Shown piece after piece: positions 7,516 to 23,115 of a stretch of 64,000 bases of DNA (its first letter is position 1; every line of letters begins with the position of its first letter). Below the pieces are notes generated by a model, which saw only the letters and a program-made list of their open reading frames with translations, was not told the DNA's origin and did not search any database. The stretch is from Simplicispira sp. 125 (lineage in GTDB: Bacteria > Pseudomonadota > Gammaproteobacteria > Burkholderiales > Burkholderiaceae_C), in the NCBI RefSeq assembly GCF_003096555.1, contig NZ_QEKM01000001.1:434001-498000 (forward strand), written 5' to 3'. The position numbers and the translations under genes are program-made.

Positions 7516-9192
7516 CTAGTCAGCCCACTCCAACTTCGCCCATTTGAGCAAGGCATCTTCCCTGGCCGCCACGGCCTTAGTCGACCATTTGCCTGCACCG
7601 ATGGCATCAGCGACCTCCTGAGCGATGAGCAGGCCAGTTTTTCTATAGTCGTCAGCCTTGTCCGCTGGCTCCTTATCCTGCAAGCTGGAGTTCAATCGAG
7701 GTGGCAAGAGCACCAGATTTCCAAGGCGGTGCTTCGATTTCTCCGGAGCCTTGCTCTGGGCCCAAATGTGTTCGATGGAGTCCGAAACACTTGCCATCCA
7801 AATGCGCTCCCACTGCTCATTACTGAATTTCTGACGATTCTTTGCTGACAGGTGCTCCTCATATCGGTACATGAAGTACCTCAACTCCTCACCCCAATCT
7901 TCGTAGCAGTTCCTCGCTTGCATTGCATCAACCGCATCCGAGATCGAGAAGTCACTGCCGATCTCCCCTAGTCCTCGACTAATCTCCTTTGGTGCTAGGT
8001 CCTCATTGATGATTCGCCATGCTAGGCGAACGTAGTCACCTACCCGTGTACGCGCGTCGTTCGAGAGCATTCCGTATATCCGGAAGGTCACGCGCTCCCA
8101 TTTCGCAAGTAGCTCGTCACGTTGCTTCGGGCTGAAGTCACTTCGCAAGTGAATGGCCACGGCTAGCAGCCGTGCTTGGGAAATCCTAGTGACTGCGTTG
8201 ATTCTTGGATTGGCCGCGACGGCATCGCGCGCCGTCACTACCTTTAACAACCAGGCAGAAACGTTTCGAATCCCCTTAGCGTCTGGGGCCTGCTCACGCA
8301 GCAGCTCTACTGAACTTTCTTCACCCAACGGTCTGCTAGGAATGTCTGGCGTACGGAGGGTTGCGGCAAATCGTAGGGCCTCCGTGCTCATGCCCTGTCG
8401 CAGACCTATGGTCACGTAGATGTCGCGCCACTTTGTATGAAGGTCCTTGATCAGGGTCTTATTCGCGGCGGCCTTCAACTCGAATGCTGCGCCCATCAAT
8501 ATGCTCTTCAATCGGTCGATCCAAGACACATCCAACCCACGACTATTCAGCACTTCGAACACCGTGTAGACCGCGTTCTCCTCGTCGATCTCATGAAGTA
8601 GAAAATGGAGCCGATTCTTAAGAAGCGCCAACAGCGACGAAAGGTCCGCCTGACGCCGTCTCCAGCCATCAACGTAAGCCATGCACTCAGATATGGCTTT
8701 GAGCAGTTCTTGGTCCGCTAGAGTCTTTGCCGTGTCGACGTCAGGCCTCGTCCCCTCGCGTAGAAACCTCTCAAAGTGGTGACTGCTGTCGTGGTTTGTC
8801 TGCAAAAGTAGCAACTCGTCGCCGTCCTGCTTGATCAACAATCCTGCGATCTCATCGGCGAGTCTGGCTTCTACTCCAACGGCCCGATCGAGAGCCAGCT
8901 CGATAGCCTTGAACAAGATGATTAGCGTTGTGAGGCGCTGCTGCCCGTCAACTACCTCAAGCACCTGAAACTCATCGGTTCCTAAGACTTGCTTTGCACG
9001 CCGGAGGCAGACTGTCGCGGCCATAAAGTGGCCCGCGTCCTTGCCCTTTGCCTGCGTCTTGTCGATGTCACCGAACAGGTCGGTCCGCTGCTTGCTCGTC
9101 CAGCTGTAAGCACGTTGATACTCTGGAATGCGGAATAAACGTCCAGCGAGCAGCTTGGATAACGTAAGGTATTGCGGATGAATGGCAATCAC
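7516..9192 (-). CDS. DUF262/DUF1524 protein, GmrSD-like nuclease
   Basis: A 558-residue protein joining an N-terminal DUF262 (ParB/Srx-like) domain to a C-terminal DUF1524 (HNH-like) domain. DUF262 signatures: FRIPEYQRAYSW near residues 20-31, VVDGQQRLTTL near 80-90, and FEVLNSRGLDVSWIDRLKSI near 208-227. The nuclease end has IEHIWAQ near 473-479 and LGNLVLLPPRLNSSLQDK near 490-507. Families with this layout (GmrSD, BrxU, SspE) are NTP-dependent nucleases that cut modified or marked phage DNA. The start is a GTG (9190-9192, minus strand) preceded by a strong AAGGGAGG at correct spacing. There is no adjacent methyltransferase or phosphorothioation gene, so a modification-dependent or stand-alone restriction role is inferred. 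Confidence 0.82.
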   Translation of the reverse strand: MIAIHPQYLTLSKLLAGRLFRIPEYQRAYSWTSKQRTDLFGDIDKTQAKGKDAGHFMAATVCLRRAKQVLGTDEFQVLEVVDGQQRLTTLIILFKAIELALDRAVGVEARLADEIAGLLIKQDGDELLLLQTNHDSSHHFERFLREGTRPDVDTAKTLADQELLKAISECMAYVDGWRRRQADLSSLLALLKNRLHFLLHEIDEENAVYTVFEVLNSRGLDVSWIDRLKSILMGAAFELKAAANKTLIKDLHTKWRDIYVTIGLRQGMSTEALRFAATLRTPDIPSRPLGEESSVELLREQAPDAKGIRNVSAWLLKVVTARDAVAANPRINAVTRISQARLLAVAIHLRSDFSPKQRDELLAKWERVTFRIYGMLSNDARTRVGDYVRLAWRIINEDLAPKEISRGLGEIGSDFSISDAVDAMQARNCYEDWGEELRYFMYRYEEHLSAKNRQKFSNEQWERIWMASVSDSIEHIWAQSKAPEKSKHRLGNLVLLPPRLNSSLQDKEPADKADDYRKTGLLIAQEVADAIGAGKWSTKAVAAREDALLKWAKLEWAD

Positions 9193-10918: not shown

Positions 10919-10942
10919 CGTTATAACCAAGCGTATACTTCG
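10919..10942 (+). promoter_or_regulatory. Candidate ModE box upstream of modA
   Basis: Half-sites CGTTATAAC (10919-10927) and TATACTTCG (10934-10942) are separated by six bases. This 9-6-9 geometry is identical to the stronger site before the TonB receptor. The left half matches the ModE-type CGTTATA well, the right half only partly. It ends 30 bp before the modA start, a position for repression when molybdate is plentiful. Confidence 0.5.
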
Positions 10943-10972
10943 CCTGTTTGTCACACTGCGGAGCACCGTCCC

Positions 10973-11731
10973 ATGCGCCTCTCTTTCCTCCAACGCAGCT
11001 TTGCTGTCTGTCTTTTGGCTGGTTGTGCCGGTACCGTGATGGCGGGAGACTTGGTGGTGTCGGCGGCGTCCAGCCTGACCAATGCTTTCAAGGACATTGC
11101 GCAGAGCTACGAGGCGCAGCACCCCGGCACCAAGGTGCTGCTGAACTTTGGCGCATCGGGCGCCTTGCTGCAGCAGATGGCCAAGGGCGCGCCGGTGGAT
11201 GTGTTTGCCTCGGCCGACCAGGAGACCATGGACAAGGCGCAAAAAGAGGGTTTGGTGCACGCTGCAGACCGCAAGGATTTTGTGCGCAACACGCTGGTGC
11301 TCATCGTGCCGATGGACGCCAAGACCGTGCCCGCCCAGCTGAGCGACCTGGCCCACAGCGGCTTTGCCCGCGTGGCCATCGCCAATCCGGCCAGCGTGCC
11401 GGTGGGCCGCTACGCGCACAGCGCGCTAGAGGCGGCCAAGCTGTGGCCCGCCCTGCAGGCCAAGGCCGTGGGCACGCTCAACGTGCGCCAGTCGCTCGAC
11501 TACGTGGCGCGCGGCGAGGTGGATGCCGGGTTTGTCTACGCGACGGACGCCGCCATCATGAAGGACAAGGTCAAGGTGGCCTTTGAGGTGCCGCTGGCAA
11601 CCGCCATCCTCTACCCCATCGCCAAGACGGCGGCCAGCCGCAACGCGGCGGATGCCACTGCGTTCATCAACTACCTGGCCACGCCAGCGGCCCAAGCCAT
11701 TGTGGGCAAGTACGGCTTTGCCAAGCCCTGA
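10973..11731 (+). CDS. modA: Molybdate ABC transporter, periplasmic binding protein
   Basis: A 252-residue protein with a cleavable signal peptide (residues 1 to about 24, cut after VMA). It binds molybdate or tungstate in the periplasm and delivers it to ModB. ModA hallmarks are in order: VVSAASSLTNAFKDIA, LLNFGASGALLQQM, GAPVDVFASAD, ANPASVPVGRYA and VRQSLDYVARGEVDAGFVY. The ATG at 10973 is chosen because it places the signal peptide correctly. It is the first gene of modABC (38 bp before modB) and follows a candidate ModE operator. Length is normal for the family. Confidence 0.95.
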   Translation: MRLSFLQRSFAVCLLAGCAGTVMAGDLVVSAASSLTNAFKDIAQSYEAQHPGTKVLLNFGASGALLQQMAKGAPVDVFASADQETMDKAQKEGLVHAADRKDFVRNTLVLIVPMDAKTVPAQLSDLAHSGFARVAIANPASVPVGRYAHSALEAAKLWPALQAKAVGTLNVRQSLDYVARGEVDAGFVYATDAAIMKDKVKVAFEVPLATAILYPIAKTAASRNAADATAFINYLATPAAQAIVGKYGFAKP

Positions 11732-11769
11732 CGCGGGTTGTTGGCCTTCTCACTTCTTTGATTTGAACC

Positions 11770-12444
11770 ATGGACGTCGCCTGGTCAGCCCTCAGCCTGT
11801 CGCTGCAAGTGGCGCTCTGGGCCACGCTGCTCAACCTGGTGCTGGGCATTGGCGTGGGCTACCTGCTGGCGCGCAAGCGCTTTGTGGGGCGCGACCTGCT
11901 CGACACCGTGCTGACCCTGCCCATGGTGATGCCGCCCACGGTGCTGGGCTACTACCTGTTGGTGCTGCTGGGGCGCAAGGGCTGGCTGGGCCAATGGCTG
12001 CAGGACACCTGGGGCATCAACCTGATTTTTTCTTTGCAGGGCGCGGTGATTGCGGCCACGGTGGTGGCGTTTCCGCTGGTGTTCAAACCGGCGCGTGCGG
12101 CGTTCGAGGCCATTGACGGCCAGATGGAAGAGGCCGGGCGCGTGCTGGGTGTTTCAGAAATCGGTATCTTTCTGCGCATTACGCTGCCCCTGGCCTGGCG
12201 CGGCATTCTGGCCGGTGTGCTGCTGGGTTTTGCGCGCGCTTTAGGCGAGTTTGGTGCCACGCTGATGGTGGCGGGCAGCATTCCGGGCAAGACGCAAACC
12301 CTGTCGATCGCCGTGTACGAAGCCGTGCAGGCCGGGCAGGATGCCGTGGCCAACACGCTGGTGCTGATTACGTCGCTGGTGTGCATCGTCGTGCTGCTGG
12401 GCGCCGGGCGCCTGGCTCCGGGGCGCATTGCGCACCGCTCCTGA
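11770..12444 (+). CDS. modB: Molybdate ABC transporter permease
   Basis: A 224-residue inner-membrane protein with about five transmembrane helices. The cytoplasmic EAA coupling loop is recognisable as EEAGRVLGVSEIGIFLRITL with G spaced as in other ModB proteins, and the LPMVMPPTVLGYYLLVLLG segment is typical of molybdate permeases. It forms the membrane channel for ModA-delivered molybdate, powered by ModC. The gene ends 9 bp before modC, so the two are translationally close. Confidence 0.95.
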   Translation: MDVAWSALSLSLQVALWATLLNLVLGIGVGYLLARKRFVGRDLLDTVLTLPMVMPPTVLGYYLLVLLGRKGWLGQWLQDTWGINLIFSLQGAVIAATVVAFPLVFKPARAAFEAIDGQMEEAGRVLGVSEIGIFLRITLPLAWRGILAGVLLGFARALGEFGATLMVAGSIPGKTQTLSIAVYEAVQAGQDAVANTLVLITSLVCIVVLLGAGRLAPGRIAHRS

Positions 12445-12453
12445 GGCAAAGCC

Positions 12454-13149
12454 ATGCAGCTCGACATTGACATCCGCAAAACCCTGCGCTCGGGCCAGCG
12501 TGTGTTCCAGTTGAATGCGCGCTTCAGTGCGCAAGGCCAGCGCGTGGTGGTGGTGGGGCCGTCGGGGGCGGGCAAAAGCCTGCTGCTCAAGGCCATTGCC
12601 GGGCTGGTGCGGCCTGACAGCGGCCATGTGCGGCTTGATGGCCAGACCTTGTTTGACGCACGCACCCGTACCCACCTGGCACCGCAGGCGCGCAACGTGG
12701 CCTATCTGTTCCAGGACTACGCGCTGTTTCCGCACCTGAGCGTGCGCCAGAACATTGCCTTTGGCCTGGCGCGCGGCTGGCGCAATCCGCGCCAGGACCA
12801 TGACAGCGCAGCGGTGGACTACTGGGTCGATGCTTTTCACCTGGGCGAGGTGGCGCACCAGGCGCCGCACGAACTCTCGGGCGGCCAGCGCCAGCGCACG
12901 GCCCTGGCCCGCGCGCTGGTGGCGCAGCCGCGTGCGCTGTTGCTCGACGAGCCCTTTGCCGCACTCGATCCGGTCCTGCGCATTACCCTGCGCGCCGAAC
13001 TCGACGCCCTGCAGCGCCGCCTGCAGGTGCCCATGGTGCTCATCACCCACGACCCGCAGGACGTAGAGGTGTTTGGTGGGCAGGTGCTACACATGCGCAA
13101 TGGGGAAATCGAATCGCAAGAGTGCATGCAGGCAACATCCGCAGCGTAA
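12454..13149 (+). CDS. modC: Molybdate ABC transporter ATPase, short form
   Basis: A 231-residue ATPase: Walker A GPSGAGKS at residues 35-42, the Q-loop in YLFQDYALFPHLSV, the signature LSGGQRQRTALARAL, Walker B LLLDEPFAALD and the switch histidine in LITHDPQD. It energises ModAB. Typical ModC proteins are about 350 residues with a C-terminal TOBE/Mop regulatory domain; this one stops soon after the ATPase core. Only 53 bp separate its stop from the next gene, so there is no room for a frameshifted Mop domain. Loss of the domain would remove molybdate-dependent trans-inhibition; similar short ModC proteins exist in related bacteria, as I recall. Confidence 0.92.
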   Translation: MQLDIDIRKTLRSGQRVFQLNARFSAQGQRVVVVGPSGAGKSLLLKAIAGLVRPDSGHVRLDGQTLFDARTRTHLAPQARNVAYLFQDYALFPHLSVRQNIAFGLARGWRNPRQDHDSAAVDYWVDAFHLGEVAHQAPHELSGGQRQRTALARALVAQPRALLLDEPFAALDPVLRITLRAELDALQRRLQVPMVLITHDPQDVEVFGGQVLHMRNGEIESQECMQATSAA

Positions 13150-13164
13150 AAATTTTTTAACTAC

Positions 13165-13188
13165 CGTTGTATAAAAAAATACATAACG
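13165..13188 (+). promoter_or_regulatory. ModE box upstream of the TonB receptor operon
   Basis: Half-sites CGTTGTATA (13165-13173) and TACATAACG (13180-13188) are separated by six A residues. Seven of nine positions pair across the dyad, and the right half equals the ModE-type half-site as I recall it from modA operators. It lies right at the 5' end of the receptor gene, so ModE-molybdate bound here would block transcription or translation initiation. Confidence 0.7.
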
Positions 13189-13202
13189 AAATGGAAACAC
13201 CC

Positions 13203-15275
13203 ATGGAAAACACGAAGCGCGATAGGTATTGCCACCCCTTTGGCGGGAAGAAAGCCGCAACCACAACAACCTGGGCACACACCCCTCCCCGGCTGCGGTT
13301 GCTAACGGCTTTGTTGCTGGCGGCTTTTGCGGCTGCACCTGTCGCCGCGCAAGACGGCAGCTTTCAGTTGGGCACGGTGGTGGTTACGGGCGCGGCGCAA
13401 GGCGCAGAGCAGGGCGCCGAGCAGGTGCTGGGCAAGGATGCCATCCAGACGCGCAACGCCGACACCGTAGGCTCCGCCGTGGTGGCCTTGCCGGGTGCCA
13501 GCCTCTCGCGCAACAGCCGCAACGAGGACACGGTGTACCTGCGCGGTTTTGATGCGCGCCAGGTGCCCATGTTTGTCGATGGCGTGCCGCTCTATGTGCC
13601 CTACGACGGCTATGTGGACTTTGGGCGGTTCACCACGTTTGACCTGGCCGAGATCCGTGTGGCCACCAGTGGCGCATCGCTGCTTTATGGCCCCAACACC
13701 TTGGGCGGCGCCATCAATCTGGTCACGCGCAAGCCGGTGCGCGTTTTTGAAGGCGATGTGCGGCTGGGCGTGGGCTCGGGTTCCGAAAAAATGAGTGCGG
13801 TCAACCTCGGCACCCAGCAGGGTGCTTGGTACGCGCAGCTGGGCCTGTCGTACCTGGATGCCGACGGCTTTCCGCTGCCCAAGGGTTTCAAGGACTACAA
13901 GGCCAAGCCCACCGATACCGGCAGCCAGCGCGAAAACGCCTACCGCACCGACCAGCGCCTGTCGTTCAAAGTGGGCCTCACGCCCAATGCGACCGACGAA
14001 TACGCGCTGGGCTACGTGCGCCAGGACGGCGAAAAAGGCAACCCGGTGTACACCGGCCAGTCCACCAGCGGCATCCGCTACTGGCAGTGGCCTTTCTGGG
14101 ACAAGGACAGTGTGTACTTCATCAGCAGCACCCGCATCGGCCAGAACAATGTGCTCAAGGCCCGGGTGTTCCACGACACCTACAAGAACAGCATTCTTGC
14201 CTTCAGTAACGCCAGCTACGCCACGCAGCTGAACAACACCAGCTTCCCCAGCGTGTACAACGACAGCTCCACCGGCGCATCGCTGGAGCTGGCCAACTAC
14301 GCGGTGGCCAACCACGAGTTGCGCCTGGCCGTGCACATCAAGGAAGACAAGCACAACGACTCCAACCCTTCGTCGCCGACCAAAAACTACCGCGACACCA
14401 CCACGTCGCTGGCGGTCGAAGACAGCATCACGCTCGCCAAAAACTGGCGCTTGCGCGTGGGCCTGTCGCACGACAAGCGCGATGCCAAAGAGGTGTATGA
14501 CTGGCCCACCGGCTCGACCAGCGCCACCAATGGCCTGGTCGAATTGACCCGCTTGCTCGATGACCACGGCAGCGAGGCCTATGCCATTGCCTCGCACAAA
14601 ACGCGCTTTCCCACCATCAAGGACCGCTACTCTGCCCGCATGGGCGCGGCGCTGCCCAACCCCGACCTCAAACCCGAGGTGGCCAACCACCTGGAGCTGG
14701 GCATCAAAGGATCGCCCTGGACCGGTGGCAAGGGCCAGGCGGCGGTGTTCTACAGCCGCATCACCGACCTGATGCAAAACGTCTATGTGGCGGCGCCGGT
14801 GGGCACCTGTGGCGCGGGCAGCAACACCTGCGCACAGGCCCAGAACGTGGGCCGCGCGCGCCACGCGGGGCTGGAGCTGTCGCTCGACCAGGCCCTTGCG
14901 CGCCAGTGGACGCTGACCGGTGCCTACACCTATCTGGCACGCCGCAACCTCAGCGATGCGAGCGTGCAGCTCACCGACACACCGCGCCACCGCCTGTACA
15001 CGGCGTTGACTTGGGCGCCCAGTGACGCCTGGGAGTTGCGCACTACGCTGGAGACCGAGCAAGGCCGCAAGGTCGCTTTTGCCGGATCGGGCAAGACCAT
15101 CTACCGCGACCTGGCTGGCTTTGGGATTGTGGGAGTGAAGGCCACCTGGAAGCCGCGCAAAGACATGGCGCTGGACTTTGGGGTGAGCAACCTCGGCGAC
15201 AAATGGTATGAACTGTCGGATGGCTTCCCGCTGCCCGGACGCACCTGGTTTGTTCGTGGCAGCTACCGTTTCTAA
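13203..15275 (+). CDS. TonB-dependent outer-membrane receptor in molybdenum operon
   Basis: An outer-membrane gated channel of about 690 residues with signal peptide (LLTALLLAAFAAAPVAA then QDG), an N-terminal plug domain (DTVGSAVVALPGASLSRNSR, then RGFDARQVPMFVDGVP, then ASLLYGPNTLGGAINLVTRKP) and a 22-strand-type barrel ending in the terminal aromatic RGSYRF. It takes up a substrate too large or scarce for porins using TonB energy. An ATG at 13191 is an alternative start; a TTG at 13167 falls inside the ModE box and is unlikely. It sits behind modABC and ahead of a second metal-oxyanion importer under a ModE box, so molybdate, tungstate or a molybdate-chelator complex is the likely ligand. 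That substrate is inferred from context, not from the barrel sequence. Confidence 0.9.
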   Translation: MENTKRDRYCHPFGGKKAATTTTWAHTPPRLRLLTALLLAAFAAAPVAAQDGSFQLGTVVVTGAAQGAEQGAEQVLGKDAIQTRNADTVGSAVVALPGASLSRNSRNEDTVYLRGFDARQVPMFVDGVPLYVPYDGYVDFGRFTTFDLAEIRVATSGASLLYGPNTLGGAINLVTRKPVRVFEGDVRLGVGSGSEKMSAVNLGTQQGAWYAQLGLSYLDADGFPLPKGFKDYKAKPTDTGSQRENAYRTDQRLSFKVGLTPNATDEYALGYVRQDGEKGNPVYTGQSTSGIRYWQWPFWDKDSVYFISSTRIGQNNVLKARVFHDTYKNSILAFSNASYATQLNNTSFPSVYNDSSTGASLELANYAVANHELRLAVHIKEDKHNDSNPSSPTKNYRDTTTSLAVEDSITLAKNWRLRVGLSHDKRDAKEVYDWPTGSTSATNGLVELTRLLDDHGSEAYAIASHKTRFPTIKDRYSARMGAALPNPDLKPEVANHLELGIKGSPWTGGKGQAAVFYSRITDLMQNVYVAAPVGTCGAGSNTCAQAQNVGRARHAGLELSLDQALARQWTLTGAYTYLARRNLSDASVQLTDTPRHRLYTALTWAPSDAWELRTTLETEQGRKVAFAGSGKTIYRDLAGFGIVGVKATWKPRKDMALDFGVSNLGDKWYELSDGFPLPGRTWFVRGSYRF

Positions 15276-16137
15276 TCGCTGGCACACCGTTTGCCGCAGG
15301 GCGCTGGCCTGCGTACTGCTGGGCGCGGCCTGCGCACAGGCGCAAACACCTGCGGTGCTGCCCGCCGTGCGCGTGGCTGCGGTGGGTGGGCTGGTGCTCA
15401 GCGGCGTCTGGCCCCGGGTGGCAACGCAGGCGGGCAAAGCCTTGGGGGTGCAGGTGCTCACCGTGGCCGCCAGTCCCAAAGAGGGTGTGGTGCCCGTGTT
15501 TGCACGCGGCGATGTCGATGTGCTCTTGATCCACGCAAGCGACGAGGCCATGGCCCTGGAGGCCAGCGCATTGGCAGCGCCGGTGCGCGTCTGGGCCTGG
15601 AACGAACATGTGCTGGTCGGGCCCGCTGCCGACCCAGCCCAGGTGCGCAACGCACGCGATGGCCAGGACGCATTGCGCCGCATTGCCAACGCCAAGGCGT
15701 CGTTTATCGCATTTCGTGACCCCGGCAGCTACTCCGTGGTGCAGCGCCTGTGGCGCCGCGCAGGCATCCGGCCCGATGCCCGCTGGGCACGCATCGACAC
15801 GGGCAACACACCACAGGACGTGTTGCAGCAGGCGGCCGCCCTGGGTGCGTATGCCGTGGTGGGCCATATCCCCGTGGCGTTCGGCAGGATGGCTGCGCCC
15901 GGTATCGAGGTGCTGCTGCAGGGCGACCCGCTCATGCGCAGACCTTATGTGGTGTTGACCCCCGGCCCACGCCATCCTGCCTCTGCGGAAACACGCCGCC
16001 GTGCCGAGCAACTGGCCGACCATCTGGTGTCTACAGCCGGGCAGGCCGCACTGCTGCAGGCACAGCCGCCTGCCACCGGCACCTGGATTTTTGGCCGCAA
16101 CACGGTTCCCGCAAGTTACGAGGAAACAAAACCATGA
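15208..16137 (+). CDS. TupA/ModA-like periplasmic substrate-binding protein
   Basis: A secreted binding-protein-like product of up to 309 residues. The probable signal peptide is around RRALACVLLGAACAQA, which would better suit an internal start such as GTG 15256; the ATG at 15208 overlaps the receptor gene by 68 bp. TupA-like features are VARGDVDVLLIHAS-type motif (here FARGDVDVLLIHASDEAMAL), FIAFRDPGSYSVVQRLW and AAALGAYAVVGHIPVAF, reminiscent of tungstate-binding proteins (GDNSGTH equivalents replaced by RDPGSY). It may be a second oxyanion binding protein, but no cognate TupB permease is next to it. Its stop overlaps the next start (ATGA, 16134-16137). Confidence 0.7.
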   Translation: MNCRMASRCPDAPGLFVAATVSNRWHTVCRRALACVLLGAACAQAQTPAVLPAVRVAAVGGLVLSGVWPRVATQAGKALGVQVLTVAASPKEGVVPVFARGDVDVLLIHASDEAMALEASALAAPVRVWAWNEHVLVGPAADPAQVRNARDGQDALRRIANAKASFIAFRDPGSYSVVQRLWRRAGIRPDARWARIDTGNTPQDVLQQAAALGAYAVVGHIPVAFGRMAAPGIEVLLQGDPLMRRPYVVLTPGPRHPASAETRRRAEQLADHLVSTAGQAALLQAQPPATGTWIFGRNTVPASYEETKP

Positions 16138-16694
16138 ACGTGATCCAGCCATCCCTTCTGGCCGCCATCGTGCACCCCGACCATCTTGGCGGTGCCGATA
16201 GCTTGCTTGCCGACTTCTGCCGCAGCCTCCAGGCCCAGGGCTGGTGCGTGGGCGGGGTGGTGCAGGCCAACCGGGTGCGCCCCGGGGGCGGCAAATGGAT
16301 GCTGTTGCAGGACCTGCGCACCGGGGAGGAGTTTTCCATCTCGCAAGACCTGGGCGCGCAGTCGCAATCGTGCTGCATCGACCCTGCCGGTGTGGCGCAA
16401 GCCAGCGGTGCGCTGCGCCAGGCGCTGCGCGATCGGGTTGATCTGACCGTGGCCAACCGTTTTGGCGCGCTGGAGGCGGCGGGCGGTGGTTTTGCCGCCG
16501 AGCTGCTGGCGCTGATGGCCGACGAGCGCCCGCTGCTGACGGTGGTCGGTGAAAAACATTTGCCAGCCTGGCGCCGCTTCACCGGCGGGTTGGGCGAAGA
16601 GTTGCCGCCCCGCGTTTCTGCGCTGCAAAGTTGGTTTTCCCTGGCCATCGACATGCAAAAGAGCCAAACGGCGATGGAGTGGGAGGAACGATGA
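16134..16694 (+). CDS. DUF2478 family protein (molybdenum-locus NTPase-like)
   Basis: A 186-residue cytoplasmic protein of the DUF2478 family, which is seen repeatedly next to molybdate transport genes. It has a Rossmann/P-loop-like start (LLAAIVHPDHLGGADSLLAD) but no standard Walker A lysine, then WCVGGVVQANRVRPGGGKWM, RTGEEFSISQDLG, and VDLTVANRFGALEAAGGG, the block in which this family resembles the nucleoside-triphosphatase THEP1/MobB fold. Function is unknown; a role in handling molybdate-related nucleotides or cofactor is a guess. ATGA overlaps at both ends couple it to its neighbours. Confidence 0.78.
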   Translation: MNVIQPSLLAAIVHPDHLGGADSLLADFCRSLQAQGWCVGGVVQANRVRPGGGKWMLLQDLRTGEEFSISQDLGAQSQSCCIDPAGVAQASGALRQALRDRVDLTVANRFGALEAAGGGFAAELLALMADERPLLTVVGEKHLPAWRRFTGGLGEELPPRVSALQSWFSLAIDMQKSQTAMEWEER

Positions 16695-17746
16695 AGCGAC
16701 GCCTCCTTTTGCAATCGGGCCTGCCTTGGCTGGCCGCTGCCTGGTGGGGTGTGCCCGCCTGGGCAGGCCCGGCGGGCAGCACCATCGCGGCCCGTTTTGG
16801 TCAACTGCCACCGCCCGAGCGCGTGCGCCGGGTGTTTGCAGCGGGTGCGCCTGCGGGCGTGCTGCTGGCCGCTCTGGCCCCTGAAAAACTGGTGGGCTGG
16901 CCGCTGCAGTTGAGCGACGCCGCCCGCGGCCTGCTCGGCGCGCCGCTGCGCGATCTTCCGTTTGTGGGGCGCCTGGCCGGGCGGGGCAGCACAGTGCCCA
17001 TGGAAACCCTGGTGCAGTTGCAGCCCCATGTGATCCTCGATTCCGGAACGGCCGACGCCACCTACATCTCGGCCGCCCAGCGCGTGACCGAGCAGACCGG
17101 CCTGCCCTGCGTGCTGGTGCACGGCCGTCTGGCCGACCACCCAGCGCAGCTGCGCGAAGTAGGGCAACTGCTGGGCGTGGCCGAACGCGGCCAACGCCTG
17201 GCCGCCTATGCCGACACGGTGTTGGCGCTGGCGGCCCAGGTGCGTGTCACCGTGCCGCCGGGTGAGCGCCCGCGCGTGTACTTTGGCCGCAGCGCCGACG
17301 GCCTGGAGACAGGGCTGGAAGGCTCCATCAACCTCGAGGTGCTCGACTTTGCCGGGGGCCGCAACGTGGCCGCTGCCGCCGGCAAGGGCTCGCTCACCCG
17401 CGTCTCGATGGAGCAGATCCTGGGCTGGGACCCTGAGGTCATCGTCACCCAAGACCCTGCCTTTGCGCGCCGTGCCTTGAGCGACCCGCTGTGGCAATCG
17501 CTCACCGCCGTGCGCAAGCGCCGCGTGCACTGCGCGCCCAGCATGCCGTTTGGCTGGCTCGATGGCCCGCCCGGCGTGAACCGGCTCATCGGCGTGCACT
17601 GGCTGGTGCAACTGCTGCACCCCGCGCACCCGGCGGTGCGTGCGCTCGAACCTTTGCCCGTGGCTGTGCAGCGCTTTTACCGCCTGTTCTACGGCGCAGA
17701 TCTGTCGCAGAAAGCGGTGGCGGCCTTGCTGGAAGGTACGGCGTGA
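16691..17746 (+). CDS. Class III (BtuF/MolA-like) periplasmic binding protein
   Basis: A 351-residue secreted protein with a signal peptide of about 25 residues (LLLQSGLPWLAAAWWGVPAWA). The BtuF-type fold is suggested by RVRRVFAAGAPAGVLLAALAPEKLVGWP, LVQLQPHVILDSGTADATYI and the late block MEQILGWDPEVIVTQD. MolA of Haemophilus, which binds molybdate and tungstate, belongs to this class. It is followed by matching BtuC-like and BtuD-like genes, so it is the binding protein of that importer. It starts by ATGA overlap with the DUF2478 gene and ends just before repeat copy C. An iron-siderophore or cobalamin substrate is the alternative; genomic context favours molybdenum. Confidence 0.82.
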   Translation: MKRRLLLQSGLPWLAAAWWGVPAWAGPAGSTIAARFGQLPPPERVRRVFAAGAPAGVLLAALAPEKLVGWPLQLSDAARGLLGAPLRDLPFVGRLAGRGSTVPMETLVQLQPHVILDSGTADATYISAAQRVTEQTGLPCVLVHGRLADHPAQLREVGQLLGVAERGQRLAAYADTVLALAAQVRVTVPPGERPRVYFGRSADGLETGLEGSINLEVLDFAGGRNVAAAAGKGSLTRVSMEQILGWDPEVIVTQDPAFARRALSDPLWQSLTAVRKRRVHCAPSMPFGWLDGPPGVNRLIGVHWLVQLLHPAHPAVRALEPLPVAVQRFYRLFYGADLSQKAVAALLEGTA

Positions 17747-17761
17747 AATTGATAATAAATT

Positions 17762-17804
17762 GGCCTCTAGCGCTTATGTATCAAGCGCTATTAGCTATCA
17801 ATTT
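17762..17804 (-). repeat. Dispersed palindromic repeat, copy C (inside an operon)
   Basis: GGCCTCTAGCGCTTATGTAT then CAAGCGCTATTAGCTATCAA: inverted orientation relative to copies A and B. It fills the 73-bp gap between the binding-protein and permease genes, the only sizeable gap in an otherwise overlapping operon, and could form an mRNA hairpin that tunes downstream expression. Confidence 0.8.
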
Positions 17805-17819
17805 GGTAGTCATACGCCT

Positions 17820-18881
17820 ATGACAACCTGCGTGAAAGAGGCTCCGCAGGCGAGCGCCATGCTCTGCCCGCCAGCCCGGGCCATCTGGCTGCCCTGGGCC
17901 GTGGCAGGCGTGCTGTTGGCGGCCGTGGTGGTCGCCGCGTTTGCGCTCGGCAAGTTCCCCATGGCCCCGGCCGACCTGTTGCGCGCCGTGCTGGCGCGCA
18001 TCACGGGGACGGAATCGGGCCTCTCGCCCGCCCAGGAAACCGTGGTCTGGAATATCCGCCTGCCGCGCGTTGCCGCCGGGTTGTTGGTGGGCGCGGGGCT
18101 GGCGGCGGCGGGCGCGGCTTACCAGGGCATGTTTCGCAACCCGCTGGTCTCGCCCGACATCCTGGGCGTGTCGGCCGGTGCCGGGTTGGGCGCGGTGCTG
18201 GGCATCTACCTGAGCCTGCCGCTGGCGGTGGTGCAGGCGCTGGCCTTCGTGGGCGGATTGCTCGCAGTCGGCACGGTGGTGGGCGTGGCGGGGCTGGTGC
18301 GGCGGCACGACCCGGTGCTGGTGCTGGTGCTCGCGGGCATTGCGGTGGGCGCACTGCTGGGCGCGGGCATTTCGCTCATCAAGATATTGGCCGACCCGAC
18401 CACGCAACTGCCTTCCATCACCTTCTGGCTGCTGGGTGGCCTGAACGCCGTGACCACGGCCGACCTCGCGGTGACGGCGCCGGTCATGCTGGTGGGCCTG
18501 GTACCCATGGCGCTCTTGCGCTGGCGCATGAACCTGTTGAGCCTGGCCGACGAAGAAGCGCAGGCGCTGGGCATCTCCGTCGTGCGCCTGCGTCTGCTGC
18601 TGGTGGCGGCTGCCACTTTGAGCACGGCGGCGGCGGTGTCGCTGACCGGCATCATCGGCTGGATTGGCCTGGTGGTTCCCCATGTGGCGCGGCTGTTGGT
18701 GGGGCCCAACTTTGCGCGTCTGCTGCCAGCATCACTCTTGCTGGGCGGCGGTTTCTTGGTAGCTACCGACACACTGGCACGCACCGTCGCCAGCATCGAG
18801 CTGCCGCTGGGCATCCTCACGGCGCTGGTGGGCGCACCGTTCTTTTTGTTCTTGCTGGCGCGGCCGGGGCGGGGCGAATGA
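17820..18881 (+). CDS. FecCD/BtuC-type ABC permease, probable molybdate importer
   Basis: A 353-residue inner-membrane protein with about ten transmembrane helices. Family marks include NIRLPRVAAGLLVGAGLAAA and GMFRNPLVSPDILGVSAGAG near residues 80-125, and the C-terminal SLTGIIGWIGLVVPHVARLL, which is the coupling region for the ATPase. The first 20 residues are polar, then helix one starts at LPWAVAGVLLAAVVVAAFAL. Its ATG at 17820 follows repeat copy C, and its stop overlaps the ATPase gene (ATGA at 18878). Together with the preceding binding protein it matches the MolABC architecture. Confidence 0.88.
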   Translation: MTTCVKEAPQASAMLCPPARAIWLPWAVAGVLLAAVVVAAFALGKFPMAPADLLRAVLARITGTESGLSPAQETVVWNIRLPRVAAGLLVGAGLAAAGAAYQGMFRNPLVSPDILGVSAGAGLGAVLGIYLSLPLAVVQALAFVGGLLAVGTVVGVAGLVRRHDPVLVLVLAGIAVGALLGAGISLIKILADPTTQLPSITFWLLGGLNAVTTADLAVTAPVMLVGLVPMALLRWRMNLLSLADEEAQALGISVVRLRLLLVAAATLSTAAAVSLTGIIGWIGLVVPHVARLLVGPNFARLLPASLLLGGGFLVATDTLARTVASIELPLGILTALVGAPFFLFLLARPGRGE

Positions 18882-19708
18882 GCACCGCGCCGCAATCGAC
18901 GAAAGCCACTGCGCCGGTGCTGCAAGCCTGCGCCCTCACCATCGGCCACGGCCAGCGGCGCGTGGGCAGCGACCTGGATTTTGCAATGGCGCCCGGCGAA
19001 GTGCTGTGCCTGCTCGGCCCCAATGGCAGCGGCAAAACGACACTGTTCCGCACCCTGCTCGGCCTGCTGGCGCCGCTGGCGGGCGAGGTGCTGGTGCTGG
19101 GCGAGCCCGTGGCCGCGTGGCCCCGCAGCGCCTTTGCGCGCCATGTGGGCTATGTGCCGCAGGCGCATGCCGGCATCTTTCCGTACACGGTCGAAGACGT
19201 AGTGCTGATGGGCCGCGCCGCCCGCATCGGCCGTTTTGCAGCGCCTGCGCAGCAGGACCGCGACCATGCCCAGCATTGCCTGCACACCCTCGGCATTGCC
19301 CACCTGCGCCAGCGCATCTACACCGCCATCAGCGGCGGCGAGCGCCAACTGGTGCTGATTGCCCGCGCGCTGGCGCAAGAGCCCGTGCTGCTGGTGATGG
19401 ACGAGCCCACCGCCAGCCTCGACTTTGGCAACCAGATCCGCGTGCTCGAACACATTGCCCAGCTGCGCCAGCAAGGCATGGCCGTGCTGCTCTCCACCCA
19501 CCAGCCCGAACACGCGCTGCGCATTGCCGATCGCATTGCCCTGCTCGGCGGTGGCTGCCTGGTGGCCATCGGCACGCCTGCCAGCACCGCGACACCCGAA
19601 CGCCTGGCCGCCTTGTACGGCGTGAGCGAACGCGCTGTCACCACGAGCCTCGCCGCCAGCCTGGGCACCACCACAGCCATATCCCATCCCCCGGAAACCA
19701 CCCCATGA
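18878..19708 (+). CDS. FecE/BtuD-type ABC ATPase, probable molybdate importer
   Basis: A 276-residue ATPase with Walker A LLGPNGSGKTTLFRTLLG, signature ISGGERQLVLIARAL, Walker B LLVMDEPTASLD and switch VLLSTHQPEHAL. The segment VPQAHAGIFPYTVEDVVLMG is typical of iron/cobalamin-class importers. The C-terminal tail (about 30 residues after GTPASTATPERLAALYGV) is also typical of that class. It powers the permease encoded just upstream, with which it shares a 4-bp overlap, and it overlaps the methyltransferase gene downstream by 4 bp. Confidence 0.9.
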   Translation: MSTAPQSTKATAPVLQACALTIGHGQRRVGSDLDFAMAPGEVLCLLGPNGSGKTTLFRTLLGLLAPLAGEVLVLGEPVAAWPRSAFARHVGYVPQAHAGIFPYTVEDVVLMGRAARIGRFAAPAQQDRDHAQHCLHTLGIAHLRQRIYTAISGGERQLVLIARALAQEPVLLVMDEPTASLDFGNQIRVLEHIAQLRQQGMAVLLSTHQPEHALRIADRIALLGGGCLVAIGTPASTATPERLAALYGVSERAVTTSLAASLGTTTAISHPPETTP

Positions 19709-20499
19709 CCATCGAAGCCATCGACTTTGGCCGCCTCTACCGCGACCACCTGGCCACCACGGCCCGCACCCGCAAAACCGCCAGCGCATGGGACAGCCGC
19801 GCCGCCGGCATGGCCAGCAAGGCCCTGAACAGCCGCTATGCCGAGGAATTTGTGGCGCGCATGGATCTGCAGGGCGCTACCTCGCTGCTGGACGTGGGCT
19901 GCGGCCCCGGCACCATCGGCCTGGCCGTGGCCCACCAGTTGCAGCGCGTGGTGGGCCTGGACTACAGCAGCGCCATGTTGGGCGCCATGCGTGCCAAAGC
20001 GGCGGAGATGCAGCTTGCCAACGTCGAAACCCTGCACCGCGCCTGGGAAGACGACTGGAGCGACGTGCCCGAGTGCGACATCGTCGTGGCATCACGCTCC
20101 ACCACGGTCGAAGACATCGCCACCGCATTGGAGCAGTTGCACGCCAAGGCAAGGCTGCGGGTGTACCTCACGCACCTGGTGGGTGGCCATTTCACCGACC
20201 CGGCCCTCCAGGCCGTCATCGGCCGCCAGGTGCCCAGCGTGCCCGACTACATCTACCTGCTCAACATCCTGCACCGCATGGGCATCCACCCACGGCTGGA
20301 CTACATCGCACACGAAGACCGGCTGGCCGATGCGGTGGACTTTGATGACTTTGCACGCCGTGTCGCGTGGTCCGTCGGTGACCTCGATGGCGACGAACGG
20401 ACGCGCCTGCGCACCTGGTACGAACGCGCTACGCCGCAGGAGCGCAGGGGTACGCCCATGCGTTGGGCGTTTATTGCGTGGGAGAAAGAACCATGCTGA
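19705..20499 (+). CDS. Class I SAM-dependent methyltransferase in molybdenum operon
   Basis: A 264-residue soluble enzyme. The SAM-binding motif I is SLLDVGCGPGTIGLAVAHQL near residues 58-77, followed by VVGLDYSSAMLGAMRAKA (motif II acidic residue) and the CDIVVASRSTTVED strand. The acceptor substrate is unknown. It is wedged between the importer ATPase (4-bp overlap) and the DUF364 gene (7-bp overlap), so it belongs to the same transcript. Methylation of a chelator or of a cofactor intermediate is possible but not shown. Confidence 0.82.
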   Translation: MTIEAIDFGRLYRDHLATTARTRKTASAWDSRAAGMASKALNSRYAEEFVARMDLQGATSLLDVGCGPGTIGLAVAHQLQRVVGLDYSSAMLGAMRAKAAEMQLANVETLHRAWEDDWSDVPECDIVVASRSTTVEDIATALEQLHAKARLRVYLTHLVGGHFTDPALQAVIGRQVPSVPDYIYLLNILHRMGIHPRLDYIAHEDRLADAVDFDDFARRVAWSVGDLDGDERTRLRTWYERATPQERRGTPMRWAFIAWEKEPC

Positions 20500-21368
20500 C
20501 CACGGCCACCCGCCTCGATGCGCCGCCCACCACACAAGGCGAAACCTTGCTGGCCGAGTTGCACGCCGAAGTGGTGGCCGCTTTGGGTCCCGAGTTGGCG
20601 CAAACCCTGCGCATCGAGCGCGCCGTGCTCGGCGTCTTTTTCACGGGCGTCAAGCTGTCCAACGGCGTGGGTGGCCTGTGCGCCACGCCCATCAAAAGTG
20701 TGCCCGAGGCCGTGTGTTGCCCCAGCTCAGCCATGGCCATGCCGGTGCCGGGCAAGATCGCCGGGCGCAATGCGGTGCAATGGCTGCAAGACCTCTACCG
20801 CCCGCAAGACCTGCGCCGTGCGCTGGCCATCGCCACGCTGAACGCATTGGTCGACACCTTGTGGCTGCGGGATGGCCCGCCCCCGGGCGCCCGGGGGCAG
20901 GCTGGCGATGCATTTGATGCGCTCGGCATCGCACCCGGCCAACGCGTGGTGCTGGTGGGCGCATTTGTGCCCTACATGCGCGAGCTGCGCAAACGGGGCC
21001 AGTCGTTTGGTGTGCTGGAGCTCGATCTCTCCACCCTGCGGCCTGACGAGCGGGTGTTTCACATTCCACAAGAGCGCGCAGCGCAAGCCATTGCCGAAGC
21101 CGACGTGCTCATCACCACCGGCACCACGCTCATCAACGGCACGCTCGACGGCCTGCTGCAGCACCTGCGCCCCGGCGCGCAGGCCGCTGTGGTGGGCCCC
21201 ACGGCTACGTTGTGGCCTGCGCCCTTTGCGCGCCGTGGGACCACGGTGGTGGGCGGCACACGCGTGACAGACGCCGATGCGCTGCTGGATCTGTTGTCCG
21301 AGGGGGGCTCGGGTTACCACTTCTTTGGCAAATCGGTGGAGCGCGTCAGCCTGTGTGTGAACCCATGA
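20493..21368 (+). CDS. DUF364 / DUF4213 putative heavy-metal-chelation protein
   Basis: A 291-residue cytoplasmic protein. The N-terminal part (about residues 15-105) looks like DUF4213, with GVFFTGVKLSNGVGGLCATP; the C-terminal part is the Rossmann-like DUF364 domain with GQRVVLVGAFVPYMRELRKR, VLELDLSTLRPDE, EADVLITTGTTLINGTLDGL and AAVVGPTATLWPAPFARRG. DUF364 is annotated only as a putative heavy-metal chelation domain and is found in molybdenum and nitrogenase contexts. It starts inside the end of the methyltransferase gene and ends in an ATGA overlap with modD, so it is co-translated with both. Confidence 0.8.
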   Translation: MLTTATRLDAPPTTQGETLLAELHAEVVAALGPELAQTLRIERAVLGVFFTGVKLSNGVGGLCATPIKSVPEAVCCPSSAMAMPVPGKIAGRNAVQWLQDLYRPQDLRRALAIATLNALVDTLWLRDGPPPGARGQAGDAFDALGIAPGQRVVLVGAFVPYMRELRKRGQSFGVLELDLSTLRPDERVFHIPQERAAQAIAEADVLITTGTTLINGTLDGLLQHLRPGAQAAVVGPTATLWPAPFARRGTTVVGGTRVTDADALLDLLSEGGSGYHFFGKSVERVSLCVNP

Positions 21369-22225
21369 CCAGCCTGCCTTCTGTCTTTTTCGACCACGCC
21401 ACCATCGACGCCTGGATTGCCGAGGACGCGCCGCTGCTCGACCTCACCACGCACCTGCTGGCCATCGGCGGGCAATCTGCGCGCATGACCTTCACCGTGC
21501 GTGGCGATACGGTGGCTGCCTGCACTGAAGAAGCTGCGCGTGTGGTGCAGCACTGCGGTGGGCAAGTGCAAAGCTGCGTGGCCAGTGGGTCGCGCGTGCG
21601 GCCTGGCACGGCGCTGCTGGTGGCCACGGGCGAGGCTGCTGGCCTGCTGCGCGCCTGGAAGGTGGCGCAGAACCTGCTCGAATACGCCTGCGGCGTGGCC
21701 GGCGCCACGGCGCGCATGGTGCAGGCGGTGCAAGCCGCAGCCCCTGGGGTAGCGGTGCTGACCACGCGCAAGCACGCGCCGGGCCTGCGGCGCATTGCGC
21801 TCAAGGCTACGCTCAGTGGCGGCGCTTTTCCGCACCGGCTGGGTGTGGGCGAGACGGTGCTCGTGTTTGCACAGCACCGCGCGTTGGTGGGTGACTGGGA
21901 TGCAGTGCGGGCACGGCTTGCACTTGCTGCGCCCGCGCTGGCCGAGAAAAAATGCGTGGTGGAGGTAACCTCGCTCGAAGACGCTTGTGCCGCCATTGGC
22001 GCGGGAGCTGATGTGCTGCAGTTCGACAAGGTGATGCCAGAGCAATTGCGCGCATGGTGCCCGCAACTGCGTGAACGGCACCCGAAGCTCGGGCTTTTGG
22101 CGGCCGGTGGTGTGAACGGCCAGAACGCCGCCGACTACGCCGCCAGCGGGGTGGATGCGCTGGTGACGAGCAGCCTGCACTACGCGCACCCGGCCGATGT
22201 GGGTGTGCAGATGGAGCCGCAATAA
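21365..22225 (+). CDS. modD: ModD protein, quinolinate-phosphoribosyltransferase homologue
   Basis: A 286-residue homologue of NadC that is associated with molybdate transport in many bacteria. It keeps the fold markers EDAPLLDLTTHLL (residues 20-32), the NLLEYACGVAGATARMVQAV helix, the TTRKHAPGLRRIALKA substrate loop, GGAFPHRLGVGETVLVFAQH and the C-terminal barrel strand LGLLAAGGVNGQNAADYA. NadC itself makes nicotinate mononucleotide; the function of ModD is not settled. It overlaps the DUF364 gene by 4 bp and ends 77 bp before modE, which has its own start region. Confidence 0.9.
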   Translation: MTSLPSVFFDHATIDAWIAEDAPLLDLTTHLLAIGGQSARMTFTVRGDTVAACTEEAARVVQHCGGQVQSCVASGSRVRPGTALLVATGEAAGLLRAWKVAQNLLEYACGVAGATARMVQAVQAAAPGVAVLTTRKHAPGLRRIALKATLSGGAFPHRLGVGETVLVFAQHRALVGDWDAVRARLALAAPALAEKKCVVEVTSLEDACAAIGAGADVLQFDKVMPEQLRAWCPQLRERHPKLGLLAAGGVNGQNAADYAASGVDALVTSSLHYAHPADVGVQMEPQ

Positions 22226-22302
22226 CCGCAATGGCCGCGCTGGCCCAGATGCCCGCCGCGGCTGTTCTACACTGGTGTTTTCACCCTTTGCAGCAAACAA
22301 CG

Positions 22303-23115
22303 ATGCCTTCCAAAGACAAACGCATTGAACTGGGCGGCTCCGTGTGGATGACGGTGGGCGGTGAAAGCCTGGGCGGGCCGGGTCGTATCGCCTTGCTGGC
22401 ACACATTGCCGAGTGCGGCTCCATCACGCACGCCGCCAAGGCCATGAAGATGAGCTACAAGGCCGCGTGGGATGCCATCGACACCATGAACAACCTGGCG
22501 GGCGAGCCCTTGGTTCAGCGCGTGACGGGTGGCAAGGGCGGTGGCGGCACGGTGCTCACGCGCCGGGGTGCGCAACTGGTCGAGAACTTTCACCTGATTG
22601 AGAGCGAACACCGCCGCTTCATTGCGCAGTTGAGCGCGCAGGCCAACGGTATTGCCGATGATTTTTTATTGATTCGGAGAATCAGCATGAGAACCAGCGC
22701 ACGCAACCATTTTGCAGGCCCCGTGACCCACGTTCAGCGCGGCGCCGTCAACGACGAAATTGAAATCCAGGCTGCAGGCGGCCACAAAATTGTGGCCATC
22801 GTGACGCACGAGAGCGCACAAGACCTGGGCCTGGATGTGGGCGCGCAGGCGTTTGCGCTCGTCAAGGCCTCGTCCATCGTGGTGGTGACCGATGCCGAAG
22901 GGGCAAAGTTTTCGGCGCGCAACCGGCTCACCGGTACCATCGCACGCCTGGTGCCCGGTGCGGTGAATACCGAGGTAGTGATCGACCTGGAAGGCGGCGC
23001 CGCTGTGGCGGCCATCATCACCAACGAGAGTTGTCAGTCGCTGGCGTTGGCGGTGGGCGGCACGGCCACCGCTATTTTCAAGGCCTCCAGCGTGATCGTG
23101 GGTGCGCCTGCGTGA
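22303..23115 (+). CDS. modE: Molybdate-responsive transcriptional regulator
   Basis: A 270-residue regulator with the standard ModE layout: a LysR-like winged helix at residues 1 to about 115 (GRIALLAHIAECGSITHAAK then AMKMSYKAAWDAIDTMN), and two tandem Mop/TOBE molybdate-binding domains at about 130-196 (begins RTSARNHFAGPVTHVQRGAV) and 205-268 (begins FSARNRLTGTIARLVPGAV). Molybdate-loaded ModE dimers repress uptake genes. The two 9-6-9 dyads before modA and the receptor gene are its likely operators. I see no ModE box before modE itself. The ATG at 22303 is chosen as it begins just before the conserved helix domain. Confidence 0.93.
   Translation: MPSKDKRIELGGSVWMTVGGESLGGPGRIALLAHIAECGSITHAAKAMKMSYKAAWDAIDTMNNLAGEPLVQRVTGGKGGGGTVLTRRGAQLVENFHLIESEHRRFIAQLSAQANGIADDFLLIRRISMRTSARNHFAGPVTHVQRGAVNDEIEIQAAGGHKIVAIVTHESAQDLGLDVGAQAFALVKASSIVVVTDAEGAKFSARNRLTGTIARLVPGAVNTEVVIDLEGGAAVAAIITNESCQSLALAVGGTATAIFKASSVIVGAPA

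Follow-up and report, generated by a model that had tools for sequence, protein, structure and literature searches.

A thirteen-gene locus with a probable role in molybdenum uptake

The locus described here lies in a 64,000-nucleotide stretch of DNA from Simplicispira sp. 125 (contig NZ_QEKM01000001.1), called the window below, which spans positions 434001-498000 of a single-contig 3.97-Mb genome. Domain and family profiles, together with a check of start and stop codons, place thirteen genes at 10973-23115, all on the + strand and all in the order in which an initial annotation of this DNA had read them. They probably form two transcription units, modABC and a unit headed by a TonB-dependent receptor (TBDR) that runs receptor-tupA-like-DUF2478-BtuFCD-like-methyltransferase-DUF364-modD-modE, and a ModE-type box precedes each unit. 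We regard it as likely that the locus is a two-unit, ModE-controlled system for the acquisition of molybdenum (or tungsten). Its features are as follows, with profile scores in bits.

10919-10942, no strand: ModE-type box before modA, CGTTATAACCAAGCGTATACTTCG, matching 12/16 consensus positions and ending 30 bases upstream of the modA ATG
10973-11731, +: modA, molybdate-binding protein (TIGR01256, 197 bits, cut-off 62.5; ATG and TGA confirmed)
11770-12444, +: modB, permease (TIGR02141, 240 bits, cut-off 183)
12454-13149, +: modC, ATPase, short form of 231 amino acids (TIGR02142, 189 bits, cut-off 285, model positions 6-218 of 353)
13165-13188, no strand: ModE-type box of the receptor operon, CGTTGTATAAAAAAATACATAACG, 14/16, ending 14 bases upstream of the receptor ATG
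13203-15275, +: TBDR of 690 amino acids (Plug PF07715, 62.5 bits; barrel PF00593, 126.6 bits)
15208-16137, +: TupA-like oxyanion-binding protein, start uncertain (solved TupA-type proteins 3lr1, E 4.5e-14, and 5my5, E 2.2e-13)
16134-16694, +: DUF2478 protein, predicted THEP1-type NTPase fold without the usual P-loop motif
16691-17746, +: BtuF-type substrate-binding protein (PF01497, Peripla_BP_2; matches 4pag, 4ovk and MolA 3psa, the last with E 2.5e-11)
17820-18881, +: FecCD-family permease (PF01032, 282 bits)
18878-19708, +: BtuD-type ATPase (PF00005)
19705-20499, +: class I S-adenosylmethionine-dependent methyltransferase (PF13649; 43% identity to the methyltransferase of the E. coli operon described below)
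20493-21368, +: DUF4213-DUF364 protein, putative heavy-metal chelation (PF13938 and PF04016)
21365-22225, +: modD, like quinolinate phosphoribosyltransferase (TIGR01334, 228 bits, cut-off 179)
22231-23115, +: modE, molybdenum-responsive regulator with a helix-turn-helix (HTH) and two TOBE/Mop domains, start possibly at 22303 (TIGR00637, 104 bits, cut-off 98.5)

The earlier statement that nearly all of these genes have overlapping starts is true inside the receptor unit, at seven of nine junctions, but not of modA/modB, modB/modC or modC/receptor, which are separated by 38, 9 and 53 bases. Six of the overlaps measure 4-7 bases and that between the receptor and the tupA-like gene 68 bases, the tupA-like start being uncertain; the two remaining junctions of the unit are gaps of 73 bases (BtuF/BtuC) and 5 bases (ModD/ModE). 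The start at 10919 given in that annotation is the first base of the ModE-like box, the modA ATG lying at 10973.

The ModA and ModB signatures of a ModABC importer are both found above their curated cut-offs; TIGR02142 is the best match of ModC, but the protein is short and scores under the cut-off. This ModC has no C-terminal domain, which is the usual oxyanion-binding part of the protein. The ModE encoded here shares 38% identity over 249 columns with that of E. coli, as well as a close HTH and an identical TGGKGGGG stretch, and its match to the solved ModE 1o7l has E 2.2e-40; the genome thus has, in the last gene of the operon, a ModE with a matching DNA-reading domain. Pfam and NCBIfam scans of the TupA-like protein gave nothing, and its homology to TupA was established with the two solved proteins listed. 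The BtuF-type protein and the FecCD permease are features of a MolABC-type importer; the MolA match is confined to residues 179-335 of the binding protein, and 4pag and 4ovk score better than MolA. DUF2478 is a family of unknown function in Pfam, and a profile search of the protein against PDB sequences returned chance-level matches only, while fold comparison predicts a THEP1 NTPase fold. Because this fold is present and a Walker A motif (GxxGxGK[ST]) is absent from all rows of a 36-row alignment, judged by eye, we did not file the protein as an active THEP1. The thirteen genes do not include tonB; genes of a TonB motor sit in a second cassette of the same genome, described below. Slightly upstream of the locus, at 7516-9192, lies a gene for a GmrSD-like restriction protein (PF03235 and PF07510).

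ModE-type operators and the neighbourhood of related receptors

The window and the genome were scanned with the ModE consensus CGNTATATA-N6-TATATANCG, which has 16 specified positions and is taken from the available part of PMC545781. Within the 64-kb window the highest-scoring site is 13165-13188, which falls in the 53-base gap that separates modC from the receptor; the maxima in ten windows simulated with an order-1 model were 10-12 of 16. The same site, with two mismatches, is the best match in the whole genome, where only one other has three mismatches or fewer. That second site, at 44498-44521 of the window (13/16), was dropped since it lies inside the coding sequence of a resistance-nodulation-division (RND) pump. 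As a positive control, the E. coli K-12 modA operator matches at 14/16. It starts 43 bases before the ATG, the box of the E. coli operon 48 bases and that of the window receptor 38 bases before theirs. The ModE control proposed in the initial annotation is supported by the DNA, since ModE-type boxes precede both units and the box of the receptor is the best in the genome.

Close homologues of the receptor (E <= 1e-60) occur in 10 of 150 genomes of the family, our genome included, and ten loci were taken from the nine others. A molybdenum neighbourhood, that is, modA, modB, modD, modE or a TupA-like gene in view, surrounds the receptor in eight of these ten, and boxes of 12-15/16 precede it in seven. 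Five of them (L022-L025 and L027) share the order receptor-(tupA-like)-DUF2478-BtuFCD-methyltransferase-DUF364-(modAB)-(modD)-modE, so that the comparison of gene order called for at the outset finds the arrangement again in related loci; because the order recurs, it is not due to chance. In L022, DUF364 is reduced to a 70-amino-acid match (17426-17721) and modD is missing before modE; accessory genes appear to be decaying there, while the receptor and the importers stay. The receptor of the window shares 92% identity with its counterpart in a bin from an uncultured Simplicispira (L032).

A wider scan used an alignment of 12 receptors and one genome per species, and we kept the best 80 of 457 relatives, some of which overlap the family loci. 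Within the fetched flanks, modA, modB, modD, modE or a TupA-like gene was found in 53 of the 80 loci, and in 40 of the 59 loci of at least 19 kb. By gene, the counts were modE 41, BtuF-type protein 51, DUF2478 45, methyltransferase 23, modD 8 and TupA-like 12, with modC, btuD and btuD2 matches below 45% identity left uncounted as generic ATPases. A ModE box of at least 12/16 was present within 450 bases before the receptor in 46 of 78 loci (two with less than 250 bases before the receptor being omitted); among 2777 control windows, each 460 bases long and taken from the same loci, 26 had one. Both box and molybdenum gene were found in 29 loci, the box only in 17, a molybdenum gene only in 22, and a molybdenum gene without readable upstream sequence in two. 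The box is thus retained in 17 of the 27 loci that have no molybdenum gene in view, and these weigh most, because no mod gene in view explains the box.

Next to the receptor, 14 of the 80 loci carry a homologue of a molybdopterin-domain protein, directly upstream in nine; PF00174 was tested on one of the 14 members (L044:9054-9686, molybdopterin oxidoreductase domain, 44.5 bits, cut-off 24). In a search made post hoc, all nine upstream genes were found to have a 12-14/16 box of their own, and none of these nine loci is among the 46.

Three further observations concern these flanks. In seven of the 80 loci (L034, L035, L036, L038, L039, L042 and L085; Comamonas testosteroni and others), a perfect 23-base dyad, CGYTATTC-N7-GAATARCG, occupies the place of the 24-base ModE box upstream of the receptor. 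These seven sites (14 strand matches) are its only occurrences in the 1.55 Mb covered, and it may be either a variant ModE operator or the site of another regulator. A homologue of an SBP_bac_6/11-type binding protein is present in the flanks of 20 of the 80 loci, within 1.5 kb of the receptor in 18, and a homologue of a di-haem oxidoreductase (PF06537) in those of 21, within 1.5 kb in 17; each domain was tested on one member, and examples are L049:3431-4756, L087:11966-14626 and L116 (Azospirillum). These loci appear to combine the same receptor clade with a different periplasmic outfit.

The receptor clade, a second cassette and the E. coli operon

In a maximum-likelihood tree of 42 receptors, 30 members of the family (the receptor of the window, 23 from the 80 loci, and six E. 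coli and plasmid receptors) fall on one side of a branch with 100/100 support. Outside it, mostly on long branches, remain the seven characterised E. coli receptors FepA, CirA, BtuB, FecA, Fiu, FhuA and PqqU, which serve iron, cobalamin or PQQ, together with four other receptors of our genome and the additional receptor that the second cassette carries. The receptor thus groups neither with BtuB nor with the ferric-siderophore receptors FepA, CirA, Fiu, FecA and FhuA. The initial annotation had named grouping with siderophore or cobalamin receptors, and the lack of a molybdenum neighbourhood elsewhere, as what would speak against its proposal; the receptor lies in a separate clade, and molybdenum genes accompany it in the 53 of 80 loci given above.

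The AlphaFold2 model of the receptor (pLDDT 87.4) has the TBDR fold, which it has in common with the copper receptor OprC, BtuB and CirA. Among solved structures OprC ranked first (TMq 0.73-0.76, 17-19% identity), followed by BtuB, FhuE and CirA; identities of 15-19% overall are too distant to name a ligand. CirA and BtuB lie in a clade apart from the receptor, and OprC is not in the tree. At 27 positions, a residue conserved in 95% or more of the family rows recurs in no more than two of the 12 other receptors. Of the 27 positions, 12 face outward or lie at the plug apex, including Y131, P133, D135, R142, K278, W294, W296 and R475, loops having been assigned manually from the DSSP string of the model. 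As no more than a hint, the few basic residues and aromatic side chains among them would be compatible with an anionic ligand, possibly one of the catechol type.

At about C1:755-773 kb, the genome of Simplicispira sp. 125 has a second cassette in which receptor, DUF2478, BtuFCD and methyltransferase occur again, with no TupA-like gene. Its DNA is 98.9% identical over window positions 13489-15271 and 94.7% identical over 16129-20508. It continues with another receptor, a second FecCD importer, DUF364, TonB, ExbB/TolQ-type and ExbD/TolR-type proteins, modA, modB and modD; a divergent gene before it codes for a ModE HTH only (TIGR00637, 88.9 bits, just under the cut-off of 98.5). The presence of a TonB motor among molybdenum genes is in keeping with an energised step at the outer membrane. 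As a control within the genome we took six other TBDR genes, which account for the eight listed places outside both cassettes, two genes being in two pieces each; modA, modB, modD, modE or a TupA-like gene was near none of the six, and no box there exceeded 11/16. The two receptor copies (13489-15271 of the window and 10889-12671 of L009) share the 98.9% identity in plug and barrel and differ in their N-terminal parts, which suggests recent recombination or gene conversion.

A related receptor was also found in 23 plasmid records, with 31-36% identity among the 15 matches listed, and the loci of ten of these records were examined. Boxes before the receptor or its presumed operon match at 14/16 in Pseudomonas aeruginosa, Methylorubrum and Shinella (twice), at 12/16 in Paracoccus, Azospirillum and Novosphingobium, and at 11/16 in Sphingomonas. 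The P. aeruginosa receptor adjoins molybdopterin oxidoreductase, moaA and nitrate reductase genes. In Proteus mirabilis (a chromosome-sized record) and in E. coli the order is binding protein-FecCD permease-ATPase-methyltransferase-modD-receptor; the Proteus boxes match at 14/16 before the operon and at 15/16 before the receptor.

The E. coli operon, prrA-modD-yc73-fepC or ECs_1693-ECs_1699, has a homologous receptor (31% identity over 680 columns), and its other products are also related to those of the window: 59% identity for the FecCD permease, 47% for the ATPase, 39% for the binding protein, 43% for the methyltransferase and 35% for ModD. It shares with the window a ModE-type box ahead of the operon and differs in having no modABC, tupA-like, DUF2478, DUF364 or modE genes and in having its receptor last. 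Genes flanking the copy in the E. coli plasmid record are chromosomal in K-12. Used as a query, the operon matched in 2102 of 5426 complete E. coli genomes and was covered to at least 80% in 2094. The five copies read (L113, L118 from Sakai, L119, L141 and L142) all lie between treA and ymgE, the place from which the operon is absent in K-12 MG1655. Their boxes match at 15/16 in four copies and at 16/16 in Sakai, and in every copy the box ends 24 bases upstream of the initial ATG. In the passages available, the operon is "proposed" as iron uptake in PMC1890555, the cluster is "possibly" iron uptake in PMC12928451 (2026), and ECs1693-1699 appear in a table of systems per strain in PMC2323221.

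Proposed molybdenum uptake and its alternatives

The initial interpretation is supported wherever sequence could put it to the test. On the most likely reading, the receptor would serve under molybdenum scarcity to import an oxidised species of the metal, whether free or as a chelate, and both ABC importers would also carry molybdenum. When molybdate runs short, ModE would come off its two boxes (10919-10942 and 13165-13188), and transcription of the two units would follow, by analogy with ModE and modA of E. coli; we infer repression by molybdenum-bound ModE because the boxes are placed as in modA. At the cell surface, the receptor would capture molybdenum in a scarce, oxidised form; this may be molybdate as such, but a small chelate of the metal is more probable. 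TonB-ExbBD would open the receptor, and the cargo would pass to the TupA-like and BtuF-type proteins of the periplasm. At the inner membrane ModABC would import the free oxyanion, and the FecCD-type importer either the oxyanion or the chelate. In the cytoplasm ModD, the methyltransferase, DUF364 and DUF2478 may process the ligand or the metal.

Several results weigh against this scheme. The modA box at 12/16 is weak, its four mismatches falling below the level of the genome-wide list, and a reversed control pattern gave five sites per strand at three or fewer mismatches genome-wide; the three-mismatch level is thus noise, and the weight rests on the two-mismatch site and its position. The box of the second cassette, between the HTH gene and the cassette, reaches 11/16, which 5% of 300 shuffles equal. 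Only 9-11/16 was found before the receptor in three of the ten family loci, ten of the 80 loci lack both a molybdenum gene in view and a box of 12/16 or better immediately upstream of the receptor, and the same holds for a related Bartonella receptor. BtuFCD may stand beside the receptor with no molybdenum gene in view, for example in L040 and L077, both of which have boxes. The first loci were already known when the 12/16 threshold was fixed, and several of the Stenotrophomonas loci nearly duplicate one another; the 46 boxes represent 38 distinct sequences. Against a chelate as cargo, modD is present in only 8 and the methyltransferase in only 23 of the 80 loci.

Alternative explanations were ranked with tungstate ahead of an iron siderophore, and ModE-activated uptake of something else behind both. 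Tungstate, rather than molybdate, is an unlikely cargo in our view. The clue to it is the TupA-like gene that adjoins the receptor in the window and occurs somewhere in 12 of the 80 loci, and E. coli ModE also senses tungstate; however, no TupA-like gene is in view in 68 of the 80, modA, modB, modD or modE is present in the window and in many relatives, and the related P. aeruginosa receptor keeps the molybdoenzyme company described above. It seems improbable, too, that a ferric siderophore is the cargo of receptor and FecCD importer and that these genes lie in a molybdenum operon by coincidence, although importers and receptors of these types mostly serve iron chelates or B12. The best NCBIfam match of the receptor is indeed a siderophore-receptor model, far under its cut-off (124 of 224 bits; the BtuB model TIGR01779 gives 92 bits against a cut-off of 600), and the hedged wording of the E. 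coli papers points the same way. Set against this are the clade apart from FepA, CirA, Fiu, FecA and FhuA, the recurrence of ModE boxes and mod genes across Proteobacteria, and Fur-like sites that do not exceed chance in what is a weak scan. The best Fur-like match before the window operon is 10/19, equalled by 155 of 200 shuffles; upstream of the E. coli operon it is 13/19 (47-56 of 200 shuffles as good); and over the molybdenum operons scanned it ranges over 10-13/19, equalled by 47-158 of 200 and in no case beyond chance. K-12 iron operons, as positive controls, gave 13-15/19, with fepA/fes at only 13/19 (12 of 200 shuffles as good). As to cobalamin, no Rfam riboswitch match at the gathering score was found anywhere in the window.

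We give very little credence to an activating ModE, by which the receptor would import something that molybdoenzymes need, a substrate or a pterin precursor, when molybdenum is plentiful. E. coli ModE does activate some genes, and the 14 loci with an adjoining molybdopterin-domain homologue could be read in this sense, but the placement of the boxes resembles that of the modA operator and the operon is dominated by uptake genes.

Each part of the proposed molybdenum system is of a known kind. ModABC and ModE are those of E. coli, with an HTH and two Mop domains in ModE and an operator of the same length and type; the presumed regulon of the window differs in its short ModC and in adding an outer-membrane receptor and a second importer. 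This importer is of the FecCD/BtuF type, like the type II molybdate importer MolABC (HI1470-1472) of Haemophilus influenzae, whose MolA matches the binding protein in part. MolABC has reportedly been studied without an outer-membrane receptor. The tungstate system is represented by the TupA-like gene between receptor and DUF2478, with no tupBC among the thirteen genes. As described in the available part of PMC9542535, the Azotobacter vinelandii receptors Avin_30860, 39890 and 47130 are TonB receptors with ABC components, activated without molybdenum and vanadium; they are under VnfA1/VnfA3. These receptors and ModA-IcmP of P. aeruginosa (PMC8602904, in part), the sole outer-membrane molybdenum route that we found in print, come closest to the proposed system among published work, and in the available text of a molybdenum review (PMC7759655) the words TonB and porin are absent. 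In the open-access literature searched we found no description of a TonB receptor that serves molybdenum, nor of one preceded by a ModE box. What is apparently new is a TBDR clade under presumed ModE control, equipped with an importer of its own, for a substrate class that appears to be undescribed.

A bolder and doubtful extension is that this clade would be the first dedicated outer-membrane molybdenum receptor family, present in Proteobacteria, one Verrucomicrobia bin and about two fifths of E. coli genomes, and that its cargo would be a small molybdenum chelate, a molybdophore of the cell's own or a stolen one, to be synthesised, tagged or dismantled by the methyltransferase, ModD and DUF364. 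Descriptions of how bacteria take up molybdenum start at the inner membrane. If the proposal is true, many Gram-negative bacteria would have a regulated, energised outer-membrane step for molybdenum, an E. coli gene set counted as iron uptake would belong to molybdenum, and the use of free versus chelated molybdenum in soil, water and gut would become an answerable question.

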